IMG/VR virus record: IMGVR_UViG_3300048589_001642
Coordinates: 1-54,647 of that record
Length of the DNA stretch: 54,647 bases
Reading direction: 5' to 3' (one strand)
DNA from: a virus
In this document: in pieces, positions 1-54,647 of the stretch
Position numbering within the stretch: position 1 is the first letter of the stretch
How the letters are laid out: each line of letters opens with the position of its first letter
Position numbers and translations under genes: made by a program
Notes under the pieces: generated by a model
The model's database searches: none
What the model saw: the letters and a program-made list of their open reading frames with translations, nothing else
Told to the model about the DNA's origin: nothing

Positions 1-231
1 GTCCCCCGCGGCGTCCCCCGCGGCGGCCCTCGCGGCGTCCCACGCGGCGTCCCACGCGGCGTCCCCCGCGGCTTCCCCCGCGGCGTCCCTCGCGGCGTCC
101 CTCGCGGCGTCCCCCGCGGCGTCCCTCGCGGCGGCCCTCGCGGCGGCCCTCGCGGCGGCCCTCGCGGCGGCCCTCGCGGCGGCCCTCGCGGCGTCCCCCG
201 CGGCGTCCCACGCGGCGGCCCTCGCGGCGTC
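1..231. repeat. Degenerate 12-bp tandem repeat (gcggcgtccccc type)
   Basis: About nineteen 12-bp units encode (G/W/R/A)(D/A)AA tetrapeptides on the minus strand. The first 75 or so bases nearly match bases starting near 45168 in the paralogue, apart from one 12-bp unit present or absent. The window edge falls inside this array. Confidence 0.9.
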
Positions 232-647
232 GACGCTCGGCTTCGCCTCGCGTGCGGACGTAGTGTCGGTCAGCGCCGCGAGCTGCTCAAGAGTGTGCGC
301 ATGGTCGTTCAGACCGGCGAGCCGTAGCCATGCCGGGGTGAACTCGCGCACCAGCCAGTCCGTCGCCATCCAGGCGCGGCGCTCCTCCACCTCGGCCGTG
401 GAGCGCGTGCCCACGAGGCGTGGGATGTAGGGCAGGAGCATCTGCCGTTCCTCGTCGTTGAGCGAGTCGTTCCACGAGCGCAGGAACGCGCCGAGCACCG
501 GGCAGGCACACCTGGGGTTGTCGCTCCAGGGCTCGCCTGCGACGTAGGCGACGGCCTCCATCACGCACGCCTCGAAGGCGCCGTTCGGCTCGGAGTGAGC
601 GCCGCCAGGAGGCGCAGATCGGGGGGAAGATCACGAATGATGTTCAC
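1..647 (-). pseudogene. Ala-rich tetrapeptide-repeat protein, copy 1 (frameshifted, cut by the window edge)
   Basis: This is a paralogue of the complete gene at 45062-45835. From the 606 frame downwards it reads GGAHSEPNGAF, then a conserved helical region (AHTLEQLAALTD), then (x)DAA tetrapeptide repeats that run off the window at base 1. The likely start is the GTG at 647, placed just after the AGGAAGAGGAACCC leader. That frame reads MNIIRDLPPDLRLL and is one base short of the repeat frame, so it stops at 561. Compared with copy 2 a single base is missing near 600-610. Either the gene is broken, the sequence has an error, or translation starts further downstream (for example at the in-frame ATG of CVMEAV). 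It is the last visible gene of the ERF operon. Function unknown. Confidence 0.7.
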
Positions 648-45065: not shown

Positions 45066-45835
45066 GGCGTCACCTCGATCATCCGGTCGAGCAGCGCGAG
45101 CGCCGACACCTGGAGCGCCTTGACCGTGGGGCGCAGAGCTTCCCCCGCGGCGTCCCCCGCGGCGTCCCCCGCGGCGTCCCCCGCGGCGGCCCTCGCGGCG
45201 TCCCACGCGGCGTCCCACGCGGCGTCCCACGCGGCGTCCCCCGCGGCTTCCCCCGCGGCGTCCCTCGCGGCGTCCCTCGCGGCGTCCCCCGCGGCGTCCC
45301 CCGCGGCGTCCCCCGCGGCGTCCCCCGCGGCGTCCCACGCGGCGTCCCCCGCGGCGTCCCTCGCGGCGTCCCCCGCGGCGTCCCCCGCGGCGTCCCACGC
45401 GGCGTCCCCCGCGGCGTCGACGCTCGGCTTCGCCTCGCGTGCGGTTTCGGTGCTCGTCAGCGCGACGAGCTGCTCCAGAGTGTGCGCCTGATCGTTGAGC
45501 CCGGCGAGCCGGAGCCACGCCGGGGTGTACTCGCGCACCAGCCAGTCCGTCGCCATCCAGGCGCGACGCTCCTCCACCCCGGCCGTGGAGCGCGTGCCCA
45601 CCAGGCGGGGGACGTAGGGCAGGAGGATCTGCCGATCCTCGTCGTCGAGCGAATCGTTCCACGACCGCAGGAACGCGCCGAGCACGGGGCAGGCCCACTC
45701 GGGGCTATCGCTCCAGGGTTCGCCCGCGACGTAGGCGACGGCCTCCATCACGCACGCCTCGAAGGCACCGTTCGGCTCGGAGTGCGCGCCGCGCCCGAGG
45801 CGCAGGTCGGTGGGGAGGGATCGGGTGGTCGCCAT
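45062..45835 (-). CDS. Ala-rich tetrapeptide-repeat protein, copy 2 (complete)
   Basis: 257 residues. Residues 1-140 are a globular domain: LRLGRGAHSEPNGAFEACVM, EAVAYVAGEPWSDSPEWACP, VLGAFLRSWNDSLDDEDRQI, LLPYVPRLVGT and WMATDWLVREYTPAWLRLAG. About 23 tetrapeptides of GDAA/WDAA/RDAA type follow (about 141-234), then LRPTVKALQVSALALLDRMI. The repeat should form a long amphipathic Ala helix. Similar repeat proteins occur in actinobacteria and their phages without known function. The ATG overlaps the previous stop. Confidence 0.8.
   Translation of the reverse strand: MATTRSLPTDLRLGRGAHSEPNGAFEACVMEAVAYVAGEPWSDSPEWACPVLGAFLRSWNDSLDDEDRQILLPYVPRLVGTRSTAGVEERRAWMATDWLVREYTPAWLRLAGLNDQAHTLEQLVALTSTETAREAKPSVDAAGDAAWDAAGDAAGDAARDAAGDAAWDAAGDAAGDAAGDAAGDAARDAARDAAGEAAGDAAWDAAWDAAWDAARAAAGDAAGDAAGDAAGEALRPTVKALQVSALALLDRMIEVTP
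45141..45417. repeat. 12-bp tandem repeat array in the Ala-rich gene
   Basis: About 23 units of the form gcggcgtccccc, with variants for Trp, Arg and Glu codons. Nearly identical to 1-231 over long parts. Confidence 0.9.
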
Positions 45836-46450: not shown

Positions 46451-46512
46451 GGGTTCCTCTTCCTCTGTGGACTGTCCGCGACAAGATACCGATTGTGACC
46501 TAATAAGGTCAA
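46451..46512 (-). promoter_or_regulatory. 46.5 kb promoter, palindromic operator and leader
   Basis: -35 TTGACC (46512-46507), 18-bp spacer, -10 TATCTT (46488-46483). TGACCTAATAAGGTCA (46496-46511) overlaps the -35 and spacer. The leader GAGGAAGAGGAACCC (46465-46451) precedes the ATG at 46446. The HNH stop codon lies within the -35. Confidence 0.8.
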
Positions 46513-49650: not shown

Positions 49651-50177
49651 CGCCCGCCGCCGATCGCGAGGCGCTGCCCGAGGTCGCCGACGACGGCCTC
49701 GATCGCCTCGCGCTGCGGTCCGGCCGGCAGGGACGCGAGGCCCCGGCTCCGGGTCTGCCGCTGCCGCGCCGCCTTCCACATGTCGCGGAGCTGCGCGCGG
49801 GCGGTCCCGAGATTGTCCTCGTCCACCGCGCAGAGCGTCCGCCATCCGAAGGAGGCGACGACCTCGGCGAGGGCGGGGTCGTCGAAGGTCGGCGAGCCGA
49901 GGTAGCCCTCGCGGCGGATCTGCCGCTGCACGTCCGCCCATGCCGTGTCCCACGCCTCGGGGTCCACGACCTCGCCGGCGAGGCGGGCGAGCTGCCCGCC
50001 GTCGGGGGGGAAGCCCGCGCCCTCGCGACCGTAGACCTCGAGCCCGGCGAGGACGGCGCCGAGCTCCTGTCCGGCGACCGTCGGCCACCAGGCGCGCGCC
50101 CACTCGACCGACCGGGGTCGGTCGGGCCACCGCTCGTTCATCGTCTCGACGACGACTGCCCACTCTTTCGGCGTCAT
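49647..50177 (-). CDS. Helicase-loader-like replication protein
   Basis: 176 residues. MTPKEWAVVVETMNERWPDR, VAGQELGAVLAGLEVYGREG and GFPPDGGQLARLAGEV fit the N-terminal domain of G39P-like helicase loaders, where the last segment reads FPPxPGEI. It directly follows the initiator, as loader genes do. The remaining half is helical. Identification is by pattern. Confidence 0.65.
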   Translation of the reverse strand: MTPKEWAVVVETMNERWPDRPRSVEWARAWWPTVAGQELGAVLAGLEVYGREGAGFPPDGGQLARLAGEVVDPEAWDTAWADVQRQIRREGYLGSPTFDDPALAEVVASFGWRTLCAVDEDNLGTARAQLRDMWKAARQRQTRSRGLASLPAGPQREAIEAVVGDLGQRLAIGGGR

Positions 50178-50998
50178 GCGACGCGCTCCTCAGACTCGGC
50201 CCACTCGCGGAGCCCGGATCGCCGGACCTCCCGGTCGAGGGCATTTCCGTTGCGTCTCGCGTCTCGCTTCGCCTGAGCGACGAGGGTCGGCCACTTCGCC
50301 CGGAGCTTTGGCATCGCGAGGATGTTCGGAGCCCAGAACTCGCTAGCGGCGACCCACGCGATCGCGCGCTCGATCTGCTCGGGCGTCCGGCCGTCGCGAT
50401 CGACCATGAGGCGGGCGGCCCGGAGCCATGCGTCAGTGATGCGTGGACGCTCGTCCGACTGGCGCTCGACGTGGTCTGCGAGCAAGCCGCAGAGCCGCTC
50501 GGCATGCAGGCGGCCCTCGGTCGCCTGCTGCTCTTCTCTTAGGTCTTTCCCTTCCTCTTCTATTAGAGGAGGGGGCGATCCGCCCCCCACGGGCGGGGTC
50601 TGCTGCCCGCCACGGGCGGGGCGTTCTGCCCTCCCCGTGGCGGCCCCCACGGGCGGGGCAATCTGCCCTCTCCGCAGCGATCCTCCGAACTCCTCCCGCC
50701 ACACGAATGCGTAGCGGTTGGAGCCGCCCTGGATCCGAGCGTGTCCGGTCCGCTCGCGGATGATGAGGCCCGCCTCGACGAGCGCGTTCGTCGCCCTCTT
50801 CACGGTCGAGGGATCCATACCGAGGCGCCCGCTCATCTCGTGGTGGGTGAACTCGACCCACTCGCCGTCGGCCTCGCCGGCGGCGGCGCTGTAGACGGCC
50901 TTCGCCGTCCAGGTGATCTCGAGCGCGCAAAGCCAGTCGGGGAAGAAAAGCCCGGTGAACATCCGCTTGGGGCAGAAGAGGATCGGCTCGTCGCTCAT
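50174..50998 (-). CDS. Replication initiator-like winged-helix protein
   Basis: 274 residues. The winged helix at about 20-110 (WLCALEITWTAKAVYSAAAG, FTHHEMSGRLGMDPSTVKRA, TNALVEAGLIIRERTG, SNRYAFVWREEFGG) resembles phage initiators. A Gly/Pro-rich linker encodes the iteron-like repeats. The C-terminal part (LRAARLMVDRDGRTPEQIER, AIAWVAASEFWAPNILAMPK) resembles DnaD/DnaB-type replisome organisers. As in lambda O, the origin may lie within the gene. Upstream of the loader-like gene. Confidence 0.72.
   Translation of the reverse strand: MSDEPILFCPKRMFTGLFFPDWLCALEITWTAKAVYSAAAGEADGEWVEFTHHEMSGRLGMDPSTVKRATNALVEAGLIIRERTGHARIQGGSNRYAFVWREEFGGSLRRGQIAPPVGAATGRAERPARGGQQTPPVGGGSPPPLIEEEGKDLREEQQATEGRLHAERLCGLLADHVERQSDERPRITDAWLRAARLMVDRDGRTPEQIERAIAWVAASEFWAPNILAMPKLRAKWPTLVAQAKRDARRNGNALDREVRRSGLREWAESEERVA
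50587..50667. repeat. Iteron-like direct repeats, putative phage origin
   Basis: Three 21-bp units CCACGGGCGGGG-N4-CTGCC at 50587-50607, 50610-50630 and 50647-50667, with a partial inverted copy (CCCCGTGG) at 50633-50640. A pyrimidine- and AT-rich stretch at about 50528-50572 adjoins them, as in lambdoid origins. The codons give PPVG repeats. Confidence 0.6.
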
Positions 50999-51546
50999 CG
51001 CCGCACCCACGGGCGCCCGTCGGCGATGACCGCCACGAAGACGCGGTGCATCTGATCCGGGTCGTCGCCCTCGACCTCATCGACTGCCGCAAGAGCTCGG
51101 TCGATGACCGCGTCGTAGCGCCGATAAGCCCGCGCTTCGTTCGTCCGACTCCTGCTGACGCGGTACGCGGGATCCAGGTCACAGGCGTGACTACGGGCGG
51201 CGACGTCGGCGAGCACGGCATCTTCGTGGCGGAGCCGAAGGTCGCTCTTCCTAGAGTTGCAGCGCCGACAGGACGCGACGAGGTTCCCAACCTCCCAAGG
51301 CCCACCAAGAGACTCGGGCACGATGTGGTCAAGGAGGAGCCGTGCGGTCTCCACGCGGAGGAAGGGCGCCTCCTCCGGCTCGAGCTCAGACCAGGGCGTC
51401 GCGCAGTACCAGCAAGTCCAGCGGTCGCGGTAGAAGACGCTCGACTGCGAGACGCGGCGGATCGGCAGCGTGTCCAGGTCGTAGGCGAACGCCTCGCCAT
51501 TGCGGTAGAGAATCCCGTCGCGGACGTCTTCGGGGCGCATGAACAT
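50995..51546 (-). CDS. HNH endonuclease
   Basis: 183 residues. CWYCATPWSELEPEEAPFLR, LLLDHIVPESLGGPWEVGNL and VASCRRCNSRKSDLR form the full HNH motif (two CxxC pairs with DH). The C-terminal half is helical and charged. ATG at 51546 or GTG at 51549 are possible starts. It is in the replication operon. Confidence 0.8.
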   Translation of the reverse strand: MFMRPEDVRDGILYRNGEAFAYDLDTLPIRRVSQSSVFYRDRWTCWYCATPWSELEPEEAPFLRVETARLLLDHIVPESLGGPWEVGNLVASCRRCNSRKSDLRLRHEDAVLADVAARSHACDLDPAYRVSRSRTNEARAYRRYDAVIDRALAAVDEVEGDDPDQMHRVFVAVIADGRPWVRR

Positions 51547-51884: not shown

Positions 51885-52141
51885 GACCACCCCTCGGGGA
51901 GCGTGTTCGGCGTCGCGGCGGCCTCTTCGCTCGCCCGCCGCGCGACGACCGTCTCTTCGGATTCCATGCGGAACGCGGTCAGGCAGTCGGAGCACAGGTA
52001 GGGGCGCCGACGCCGAGCGCCCGGCCGCATCCGCCCGTATGCCTCGCGGACCATCGCCGGGAGGGGAGTCGAGGCGAGCCACACGACGGCGTCGCGACGG
52101 CAGCCGTCGCACCAGCCGATCTCGGCGAGGGGGCGCCTCAT
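51881..52141 (-). CDS. Zinc-finger protein
   Basis: 86 residues. WCDGCRRDAVVWLAS and YLCSDCLTAFRMESEE supply two CxxC pairs separated by a basic stretch (RMRPGARRRRP). Overlaps the RusA gene. It likely binds nucleic acid. Confidence 0.7.
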   Translation of the reverse strand: MRRPLAEIGWCDGCRRDAVVWLASTPLPAMVREAYGRMRPGARRRRPYLCSDCLTAFRMESEETVVARRASEEAAATPNTLPEGWS

Positions 52142-52659
52142 GCCGCGACCTCGGTCACGAACATCGCCGAGACCCAGACGACCGTCCGGGCGCCTCGCCC
52201 GTCATCCCAGACCTTGTCGACCTGGAGCGAGCAGACCTGGTGGTCGTCCGTCCATGCGAGGCCCTTGAGCCCGTCGAGGATCGGCTTCGCGAGGTTGTCG
52301 AGGTCGGCCAGCGTCGAAGTCGGCAGGTGCGAGCGCAGGCCGGCGGCCGAGAGCCCCCCGCCCTTGAGGAGGTGACCGGCCGGGCGCGGGTAGACCGCGA
52401 GGATCCTCACGGCGACCGGGCCCGTGATGCGCTTCGGCCGCCCGGCGCGACCGCCCGAGAACGTCCACGCCTGCGAGACGTCGGCCTGTACCGCCTTGGT
52501 CTTCGCCTGCGAGTAGCGGCGCCCGTCCGGGGTCGTGCCCGCGCGCTCGCCCGGACGAGGGCGGCCCTTGATCTCCAGGCGCACGGGGGCGACCGGGGCG
52601 CTCGCCCATGAGGTCCACTCGGCGGCCCACCCGCGCTCGGCGGCGGCGAGGTCAGTCAT
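52138..52659 (-). CDS. rusA: RusA-type Holliday junction resolvase
   Basis: 173 residues. The catalytic signature DLDNLAKPILDGLKGLAWTD (from residue 119) with DDHQVCSLQVDKVW is complete, including the acidic triad. Strands in the first half (VAPVRLEIKGRPRPG, VRILAVYPRPAGH) fit. RusA cuts four-way junctions arising in replication or recombination, probably together with ERF. ATG at 52659. Confidence 0.88.
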   Translation of the reverse strand: MTDLAAAERGWAAEWTSWASAPVAPVRLEIKGRPRPGERAGTTPDGRRYSQAKTKAVQADVSQAWTFSGGRAGRPKRITGPVAVRILAVYPRPAGHLLKGGGLSAAGLRSHLPTSTLADLDNLAKPILDGLKGLAWTDDHQVCSLQVDKVWDDGRGARTVVWVSAMFVTEVAA

Positions 52660-53153
52660 CGGCGCACCCGCTCGAGCACCTCGGCGACGGCCGAGTCCTG
52701 ACGGATCCACCTACGGTTCGGCGGCGGCGGGTCCTCGGAGACGAGAGCGCGGGCGCGCTCGACGGCCGAGGCGGGGTGCGCCTCGGGCTCGCGGAGGATC
52801 GCGCGGGCTTGGGTCTGGCGGTGCCGGAGGTGCTCGTCCGGGTCGAGCTGCCGGCGGGCGACCTGCCACATCCGGGCGTGATCGGGGCCGCAGGTCCGAC
52901 GACGGGCGGGGCGCGAGCATCCGGGGATGGCGCACACCGACGTCGGCTCGTCCGCGGGCGGGTCCGTCTCGGCGGCTCTCGCGCGCTCGGCGGCGATCTC
53001 CGCGCGCCGTCGCTCCTCCCGGGCCCGGCGGTTCGCCGAGCGGTCGGAGGGCTTCGCCCGCCGCGATAGCCTCGACTGGACCGCCTGCTTCGTGACGCCG
53101 TACCGCGCGCCGATCTCGACGTAGGTCTCGCCGTCGCGCCAGAGCGCGAGCAT
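52656..53153 (-). CDS. HTH protein with zinc motif, first gene of the early operon
   Basis: 165 residues from ATG 53153. MLALWRDGETYVEIGARYGV and TKQAVQSRLSRRAK form a helix-turn-helix; a CAIPGCSRPARRRTCGPDHA zinc motif follows at about 73-92. The rest is helical and charged. The frame is open upstream to about 53310 and follows the conserved leader at 53315, but no normal start occurs there except the rare CTG near 53311. It may be an early regulator. Confidence 0.6.
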   Translation of the reverse strand: MLALWRDGETYVEIGARYGVTKQAVQSRLSRRAKPSDRSANRRAREERRRAEIAAERARAAETDPPADEPTSVCAIPGCSRPARRRTCGPDHARMWQVARRQLDPDEHLRHRQTQARAILREPEAHPASAVERARALVSEDPPPPNRRWIRQDSAVAEVLERVRR

Positions 53154-53186
53154 CGCGGCCGTCTTGTCCCCGTCCTCGTGTCCCCC

Positions 53187-53199
53187 CCGTGCATCACGG
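53187..53199. promoter_or_regulatory. Palindrome of the GTGATGCAC family, site 3
   Basis: CCGTGATGCACGG (read on the minus strand). Shares its core with the sites at 53338-53352 and 54502-54516. Confidence 0.6.
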
Positions 53200-53314
53200 A
53201 GGCGGGTCGGGGCGGGGTCGGGCGAGGCGTGATCGCCGTTGCGATGCGGCTCGGGCCTGACCCCTAGGGGGTCTCGACCATGAGCATCGGATGTCCTGCT
53301 TCCTGATCGCAGCG

Positions 53315-53401
53315 GGGTTCCTCGCCCTCTCGCGGTCCCGGTGCATCACCGGAACATCACCAACGCGAGGGACGATACCCGCCTCGACCTGATTAGGTCA
53401 A
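53315..53401 (-). promoter_or_regulatory. Early-operon promoter, operator and leader
   Basis: -35 TTGACC (53401-53396), 18-bp spacer, -10 TATCGT (53377-53372). CGACCTGATTAGGTCA (53385-53400) overlaps -35 and spacer. A GTGATGCAC palindrome (53338-53352) lies in the transcribed leader, followed by the conserved ribosome-site leader GAGGGCGAGGAACCC (53329-53315). Confidence 0.78.
53338..53352. promoter_or_regulatory. Palindrome of the GTGATGCAC family, site 2
   Basis: CCGGTGATGCACCGG on the minus strand, a perfect 6-3-6 palindrome downstream of the early promoter. Confidence 0.65.
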
Positions 53402-53402
53402 G

Positions 53403-54488
53403 TCATGGCAGGAGGTCGGCGAGGTCGAGGACCGGATCGACGTCGTCGTCGATGAGGACGTGCGAGTAGACGTTGAGCGTCATCGCCGGGGACGAGTGCC
53501 CGAGGCGCTCGCGCACGACCGTGATCGGGACGCCCTGCATCACCAGGCGCGAGGCGTAGCGATGGCGGAGCATGTGGGGCGTGAGCGTCGGGCGCCCCCG
53601 CAGCGTCGTCCTCTTGTAGAGGATGTTCTGTAGCGACTTCCCCGAGAATCCGAGGACCGGCCGGTCGGGGCCGACGTCGTCGGGGATCAGCGCGAGGGTC
53701 GCGGGGCGGAGCGGTATCCAGCGCTCGCCGTGCCGGCCCGCCCGTGTCGTCTTCTTCGTGCGCTCGCGCCGGACGAGGATCCGCCCGCGGGAGCGGTCGA
53801 CGTCGCGGGCGAGCAGCGCCTCGGCCTCGCCGATCCTCATGCCCGAGCCCTCGATCACGCAGAGGATCGGGCCCCATCGCTCCGGGAGTGAGCGGACGAG
53901 CTCGACGAGGTACGCGGCCGAGGGCGGGCGGACCTCCGGGGAGTGATAGACCGGCAGGGTCAGACGGTCGCGGGCGACGGGATTCGGGTCGATGCCGGCC
54001 CGCGCCAGGGCGTCGCGCAGGAGGGCGACCGAGGCTCCGATCGAGGACGCCCCGAGCCTCCCCTCCCCCGCGACCCGATTGATCCAGCGCTGCACGACCA
54101 CGGGCGTCAGCTCGCCGACGCGCATCGCGCGGATCTCGGGCGGCAGGCGGCGCAGGCTGGAGCCGTAGTTGCCGATCGTCGCCTCGTCCACGTCCACCCG
54201 GGCGGCGATGTGATCGGCGACGAGCGCCTCGACGGTCGGCGATCGCTCAATCCGCTCGGAGGGATTGAGGTCCGGCACCCGGCCGGCGGCGAGCTCCTCG
54301 AGGATGTACCCGCGGCGGGCCTCGGCGAGCTTGCGCGTTCGCTCGCTGCCGCCGTGCCGCAGGCGCGAGTCGCGGCCCCCGAGGCGCCATCGGACGATGT
54401 ACCGCCGCTCGCCCTTCTCACCCGGCCGGGCGGCGCGCCAGCGGCCGTCGGCGCCGCGGACCCGGACGAGGATGTGCGCCGATCCCAT
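53403..54488 (-). CDS. int: Tyrosine integrase
   Basis: 361 residues. An arm-binding-like N terminus, a core-binding helical domain (about 85-180), and the catalytic domain with Arg218 (GSGMRIGEAEALL), Lys near 246, His305 and Arg308 (HMLRHRYAS), His331 (RLGHSSPAMTL) and Tyr341 (NVYSHV). All catalytic residues are present, so it should integrate and excise the phage. The ATG lies 6 bases from a TATCTT -10, so the mRNA is probably leaderless. No attachment site was recognised next to it. Confidence 0.92.
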   Translation of the reverse strand: MGSAHILVRVRGADGRWRAARPGEKGERRYIVRWRLGGRDSRLRHGGSERTRKLAEARRGYILEELAAGRVPDLNPSERIERSPTVEALVADHIAARVDVDEATIGNYGSSLRRLPPEIRAMRVGELTPVVVQRWINRVAGEGRLGASSIGASVALLRDALARAGIDPNPVARDRLTLPVYHSPEVRPPSAAYLVELVRSLPERWGPILCVIEGSGMRIGEAEALLARDVDRSRGRILVRRERTKKTTRAGRHGERWIPLRPATLALIPDDVGPDRPVLGFSGKSLQNILYKRTTLRGRPTLTPHMLRHRYASRLVMQGVPITVVRERLGHSSPAMTLNVYSHVLIDDDVDPVLDLADLLP

Positions 54489-54494
54489 CGGGCG

Positions 54495-54525
54495 AAGATA
54501 CCCCGTGATGCACGGGTGAGGTCAA
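54495..54525 (-). promoter_or_regulatory. Integrase promoter with central operator
   Basis: -35 TTGACC (54525-54520), 19-bp spacer, -10 TATCTT (54500-54495), ATG 6 bases later. The spacer is nearly filled by the palindrome CCCGTGATGCACGGG (54502-54516), so a bound protein would block this promoter. Confidence 0.72.
54502..54516. promoter_or_regulatory. Palindrome of the GTGATGCAC family, site 1
   Basis: CCCGTGATGCACGGG, perfect 6-3-6 palindrome inside the integrase promoter. Confidence 0.7.
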
Positions 54526-54527
54526 CG

Positions 54528-54647
54528 TCACTTCTCGACGAGCGTCCAGCGCTCGAGGGCCGCGTCGAGGTGCTCGCGCCGGATGAAGCAGCGGCGCACC
54601 CCGGGGACGCGGACGGTCGGCAGCTCGCGGAAGATCGCGTCGGCCAT
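54528..54647 (-). CDS. Excisionase/MerR-type DNA-binding protein, C-terminal part
   Basis: 39 residues are visible: MADAIFRELPTVRVPGVRRC, FIRREHLDAALERWTLVEK. The LPTVRVPGVRR-FIRREHLDAALE pattern is the wing and last helix of excisionase-type HTH proteins. An ATG lies exactly at the edge, but the HTH itself would be upstream, so the gene is probably cut. Next to the integrase, it fits an excisionase or directionality factor. Confidence 0.6.
   Translation of the reverse strand: MADAIFRELPTVRVPGVRRCFIRREHLDAALERWTLVEK

Follow-up and report, generated by a model that had tools for sequence, protein, structure and literature searches.

The window analysed here is a virus contig of 54,647 bases with a G+C content of 73%. 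Its minus strand encodes, in this order, the C-terminal 39 residues (MADAIFRELPTVRVPGVRRCFIRREHLDAALERWTLVEK) of a xis-like winged-HTH protein truncated by the contig end (54528-54647), a gap of 39 nt, a tyrosine integrase of 361 amino acids (int, 53403-54488), an early-type promoter, 250 non-coding bases, a small HTH protein (52656-53153) that heads the early operon, RusA (52138-52710) and the replication genes, among them a replication O-like gene (50174-51010). The predicted int promoter (TTGACC-19-TATCTT, 54495-54525, minus strand) is leaderless, with the ATG at 54488; it was read directly from the sequence, as its 19 bp spacer left it unlisted by a consensus promoter scan that allowed spacers of 16-18 bp. 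The predicted early promoter (TTGACC-18-TATCGT, 53372-53401, minus strand) has a -35 element that overlaps a palindrome of a separate family (TTGACCTAATCAGGTCGA, 53384-53401). Members of this family also lie at 46495-46512 and at about 2230-2247, and the three copies overlap three predicted promoters, one of which is divergent from a repressor-like gene (2336-2818). The copy near 2230 was recognized by eye and is more degenerate than the other two. Furthermore, a 630-bp gene segment with 12-bp alanine/arginine-rich repeats occurs twice in the window (3-627 and 45190-45816, 90% identical), and the truncation of one copy by the left contig end may explain why the assembly stopped there.

Three related palindromes had been described around the integrase gene in a sequence-only reading of this DNA, and all three were recovered at their positions: site 1 (CCCGTGATGCACGGG, 54502-54516, plus strand), site 2 (CCGGTGATGCACCGG, 53338-53352, read on the minus strand) and site 3 (CCGTGATGCACGG, 53187-53199, minus strand). 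Site 1 fills the spacer between TTGACC (54525-54520) and TATCTT (54500-54495) of the int promoter, the latter located 6 nt ahead of the int ATG, and sites 2 and 3 are situated within the 250 non-coding bases between int and the HTH gene. The three sites share the 9-mer GTGATGCAC, which occurs exactly three times in 54.6 kb (53189-53197, 53341-53349 and 54505-54513), each time in non-coding DNA near int and with extended dyad arms. Dyad symmetry and matching outer arms are present at sites 1, 2 and 3, and the central ATG of GTGATGCAC is fixed and asymmetric. Dinucleotide shuffles predicted 0.22 copies of the 9-mer compared with the three observed, and none of 100 shuffles reached three. When the free choice of motif was allowed for, an equally rare palindromic family clustered within 1.5 kb appeared in two, nine and ten of 120 simulated windows (Markov order 1, 3 and 5, respectively). 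The recurrence of GTGATGCAC alone is thus of moderate significance, and the case rests on its location and on the relatives described below.

The statement that there were no further copies holds for exact matches only, since a degenerate second unit, GTGATGTTC (53352-53360), lies 11 bp from site 2. Site 2 can therefore be read as a tandem pair, GTGATGTTC-CG-GTGATGCAC (53341-53360, minus strand), located 42 nt past the int stop codon; it is the best 11-bp tandem of GTGATGCAC in the window (2/18 bases off), and its two units differ at 2/9 bases. The partners 11 bp from the other sites are weaker, with 5/9 bases each, and give GTGATGCAC-GG-GTGAGGTCA as a possible pair at site 1 and GTGATGCAC-GG-GGGGGACAC at site 3 (53178-53199, minus strand). 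The functional unit is likely the 9-bp half of a direct repeat with an 11-bp period and not the palindrome. The dyad at site 2 would then require no explanation of its own, because any unit with G as its first and C as its last base yields a dyad automatically when it is repeated across a CG linker. A direct-repeat reader leaves the dyad arms at sites 1 and 3 unexplained; we estimate the chance of their occurrence at roughly 1 in 1000.

Eighteen of 399 genomes from one bacterial class, probably the Thermoleophilia, encode integrases 31-40% identical to that of the window, most of them adjoining a xis-like protein. A protein of this kind is encoded upstream of int in relatives such as L165, L167-L171, L174, L177, L179, L289-L291 and the viral contig L295, and in one relative it weakly matched Pfam HTH_17. 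Of 22 relatives, nine carry a tandem pair starting with GTG in the 130 nt that follow int, compared with 3/1047 control windows (Fisher p 2e-14); the GTG condition was chosen after viewing, and without it the counts are 10/22 versus 98/1047 (p 2e-5). A strict 11-bp test that included viral relatives gave 10/32 versus 4/566 (p 4e-11). These pairs read GTGGTGTCC-TG-GTGGTGTTC in L165, GTGCTACCC-CC-GTGCTACCT in L171, GTGGTGTCT-CG-GTGGTGTCT in L172, GTGTGGTCC-CG-GTGTGGTCC in L174, GTGATGCCC-CC-GTGATGCCC in L176 and, as a perfect repeat, GTGTGGTCC-CC-GTGTGGTCC in L178. What is conserved after int is the direct repeat with its 11-bp period; the palindrome is not retained (see the units GTGATGCCC, GTGGTGTCC and GTGCTACCC). 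The link of the three sites to the integrase was rightly proposed in the sequence-only reading. In six relatives TTTGCAG/CTGCAAA follows at +19 to +26 from the pair, and a tRNA-Ala gene is located 52 bp beyond the pair of L165. A tandem pair combined with a core motif or a tRNA end after int marks these regions as attachment sites. No clear pair follows int in about half or more of the relatives, in some perhaps owing to an int that is located away from att, and across 13 loci no significant covariation was detected between the arm sequence and the N-terminal domain of the integrase (Mantel rho 0.16, p 0.19). In five relatives (L169, L174, L290, L291 and L293), xis and int are separated by a long leader that looks structured and includes a short upstream reading frame as well as a GAGGAGGTC-like stretch; the window has no such leader.

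Viral contigs show how such pairs are arranged around a core. In L295 the core is flanked on either side by pairs in direct orientation with 143 bp between them, and site 2 and site 3 of the window are likewise separated by 143 bp. L370 carries an exact GTGATGCAC-CG-GTGATGCAC, followed by CTGCAAA and then, at 133 bp, by a second pair that is degenerate, and these pairs precede an integrase 35% identical to that of the relative L179. In L371, a pair directly precedes an open reading frame that, judged by eye, resembles an integrase beginning with an arm-binding part. Searches of viral contigs with the integrase, the HTH protein and gene 51546 yielded no usable close relatives of the window. The major capsid protein matched distant kin and L125, a 4.6-kb piece of the identical phage; as the capsid proteins are 100% identical and L125 originates from another metagenome, the phage is present in a second sample.

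Based on this arrangement, the pair at 53341-53360 would form the proximal arm and site 3 with its weak partner the distal arm (53178-53197) of a candidate attP beside int, in which short repeated units flank the predicted core. By the spacing in the relatives, the core is tentatively placed about 20-42 nt beyond the proximal pair, at 53299-53322 (minus strand, GGAACCCCGCTGCGATCAGGAAG), a stretch that lacks the TTTGCAG/CTGCAAA of the relatives. A search of 389 genomes of one class, which is possibly not that of the host, revealed no convincing attB. The candidates obtained with the query 53195-53345 were scattered GC-rich matches in unrelated genes and were rejected.

The integrase matches PF00589 (E 4e-16) and contains the catalytic residues R218, H305, R308, H331 and Y341, of which R218, H305, R308 and Y341 are invariant among 11 relatives. 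Its AlphaFold2 model (pLDDT 83.8) has a beta-beta-beta-alpha N-terminus (E3-11, E17-19, E28-35, E43-49 and H52-67) ahead of the core-binding and catalytic domains, and Foldseek aligned the model along full-length lambda Int (1z1g, 345 columns) and also with Tn1549 Int. Pfam Arm-DNA-bind_3 gave a weak match in 2 of the 11 relatives. An N-terminal domain of this predicted fold ahead of core-binding and catalytic domains characterizes integrases in which arm and core DNA are bound as separate sites. The window shares with the heterobivalent integrases of the lambda and Tn916 type a predicted arm-binding N-terminal fold, the catalytic residues and helix-turn-spaced direct-repeat units flanking the predicted core; it differs from their attP in the arm sequence, in the location of the candidate attP after the 3' end of int and in that core and attB were not identified here. 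We consider it probable, from the sequence and the structural model, that the phage's own lambda-like tyrosine integrase uses the GTGATGCAC sites as arm-type sites, that the region at 53.18-53.36 kb is attP and that site 1 is an autoregulatory copy. The arms would be held by the N-terminal domain and the core cut by the catalytic domain. Counting against this are the relatives without a clear pair, the mismatched or weak partner units, the lack of significant covariation, the absent TTTGCAG and attB, the dyads of sites 1 and 3, the distance and strand of site 1 and the weak Pfam matches. Integrase arm sites as such are ordinary in kind; the copy in the int promoter is unusual.

The same unit also occurs in host genomes. 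Exact or one-off tandems of GTGATGCAC were detected at 24 places in the 399 genomes, compared with none for the reversed control, and most of them are located just inside direct repeats of the rnpB 3' end, where one repeat copy ends a full RNase P RNA gene. The intervals bounded by these repeats span 1.7-4.7 kb and contain ordinary host-type genes (e.g., regulators, a transporter, a decarboxylase); one of them (L282) encodes a Xer-like integrase without an arm domain, which counts against the units being integrase arm sites. The intervals look like gene cassettes inserted at rnpB. In seven loci (L271, L274, L275, L280, L282, L283 and L286) the cassette-like interval extends from a partial copy of the rnpB 3' end (AGCAGGCCTGTAAGCCGGATT) to the next copy, which is often the full RNase P RNA gene, and GTGATGCAC pairs or single units are present inside the interval ends. 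Furthermore, a conserved GGCTTAACCATGCGGTTC-like stretch is found between the rnpB-end copy (or an integrase) and the arm pair in the 3' flank of L290 and in L166, L217-L223 and L228. A literature search for rnpB together with gene cassettes or Thermoleophilia returned nothing relevant.

The main rival to the integrase as binder is the excisionase, a candidate close to one already named in the sequence-only reading, and we regard it as rather unlikely. The xis-like protein would bind the sites in two roles, for excision at attP and for repression or activation of the int and early promoters, in the manner of Apl of phage 186 or RdfS. The direct repeats recognized by recombination directionality factors, at att sites and at promoters, are spaced by about one helix turn (PMC7498355; PMC11963761), and such factors can repress promoters (PMC7498355). 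The window resembles these systems and BldC-type factors in having the C-terminus of a winged-HTH, MerR/BldC-type protein (54528-54647) directly upstream of int, and the positions of the sites at att and promoters are compatible with such a role. In contrast to Apl, RdfS and BldC-type factors, however, pairs here flank both sides of the core, as in L295 and the rnpB elements, which is typical of integrase arms, and they occur where no xis-like gene was seen: the perfect pair of L178 follows an int upstream of which no xis-like peptide was found, and the rnpB elements show no xis-like gene. The integrase is favoured because of the pairs on both core sides and the L178 pair.

Alternatively, the sites could be palindromic operators through which a transcription factor (the phage repressor, the HTH protein or a host regulator) jointly switches int and the early operon. 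In favour of this option are the dyad symmetry and the matching outer arms of sites 1, 2 and 3 and their location in or near two promoters, yet the fixed central ATG is asymmetric, the units of the relatives are non-palindromic and the phage repressor family seems to use a different operator, the TTGACCTAATCAGGTCGA type (at 53384, 46495 and, degenerate, near 2230), which together make operators improbable. A host regulon was rejected, as in the 399 genomes the motif takes palindromic and asymmetric forms with about equal frequency (79 versus 71 among the 150 matches listed). The earlier suspicion of a shared DNA-binding factor is retained, but the probable function of the sites shifts from transcriptional operators to recombination, and nothing was found to favour the HTH protein as the binder. 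Both int and the early operon may nonetheless be controlled jointly: the int promoter contains site 1, and the predicted early promoter is followed closely by site 2. As for a short motif recurring by chance in this GC-rich sequence, whole-window simulations yield an equally rare palindrome family in 2-8% of cases; against chance, all three copies are non-coding and next to int, and their unit and spacing recur at the attachment regions of relatives and in host elements. We consider chance very improbable. A first pattern scan (CCGTGATGCACGGG, 119 stretches) gave scattered single matches, with two palindromic copies at one locus only, and the pattern of promoter plus palindrome gave 24 matches in viral contigs, about the chance level by our own estimate and with no integrase downstream by eye. 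Site 2 lies inside a predicted leader hairpin (z -2.4) that matched no Rfam family, and a shared RNA signal is unlikely, as site 1 is located upstream of the predicted transcription start and is reversed.

If site 1 is an arm-type site of the integrase, the enzyme bound between the -35 and -10 elements would switch off its own gene. Repression of int by its own product through att or arm sites was reported for IntS of KplE1 (PMC2951348) and IntS of ICEMlSym (PMC11963761), and, as in these systems, the predicted integrase site of the window overlaps the int promoter. In contrast to both, where the promoter-overlapping site is situated within attL/attP, site 1 lies outside the recombination region, 1.15 kb from the candidate attP and across the whole int gene, and on the strand opposite to the attP arms. 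Among the relatives, no copy was found right before int; L165 has degenerate copies upstream of xis.

The candidate attP separates the operator-bearing early promoter (53372-53401) from the early operon with the HTH, RusA and replication genes. As suggested by this gene order, integration would sever the replication operon from its promoter, leaving xis, int and the promoter at one end of the prophage and a promoterless early operon at the other, and excision would rejoin both. In integration-dependent immunity of mycobacteriophage BPs, integration at attP likewise alters which phage genes can be expressed (PMC4557955). In BPs attP is inside the repressor gene, whereas here the repressor-like gene (2336-2818) is distant from the candidate attP (53.18-53.36 kb), which is located between early promoter and early operon. 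We tentatively hypothesize that the integrase has two roles, joining the phage to the chromosome and gating the lytic operon, with the arm-site copy in its own promoter limiting its level, a possibility that we hold at well below even.

A previously unexplained palindrome family thus leads to a located candidate attachment site in a phage of an apparently uncultured actinobacterial lineage. For the xis-int module, the relatives suggest a rule for finding attP: a pair of 9-mers starting with GTG, with an 11-bp period, 20-60 nt after int and often followed by TTTGCAG. As the arm unit is common to the phage and the host rnpB cassettes, both may share one recombination code. If integration does split the early operon from its promoter, integration itself would be part of the lysis-lysogeny decision.
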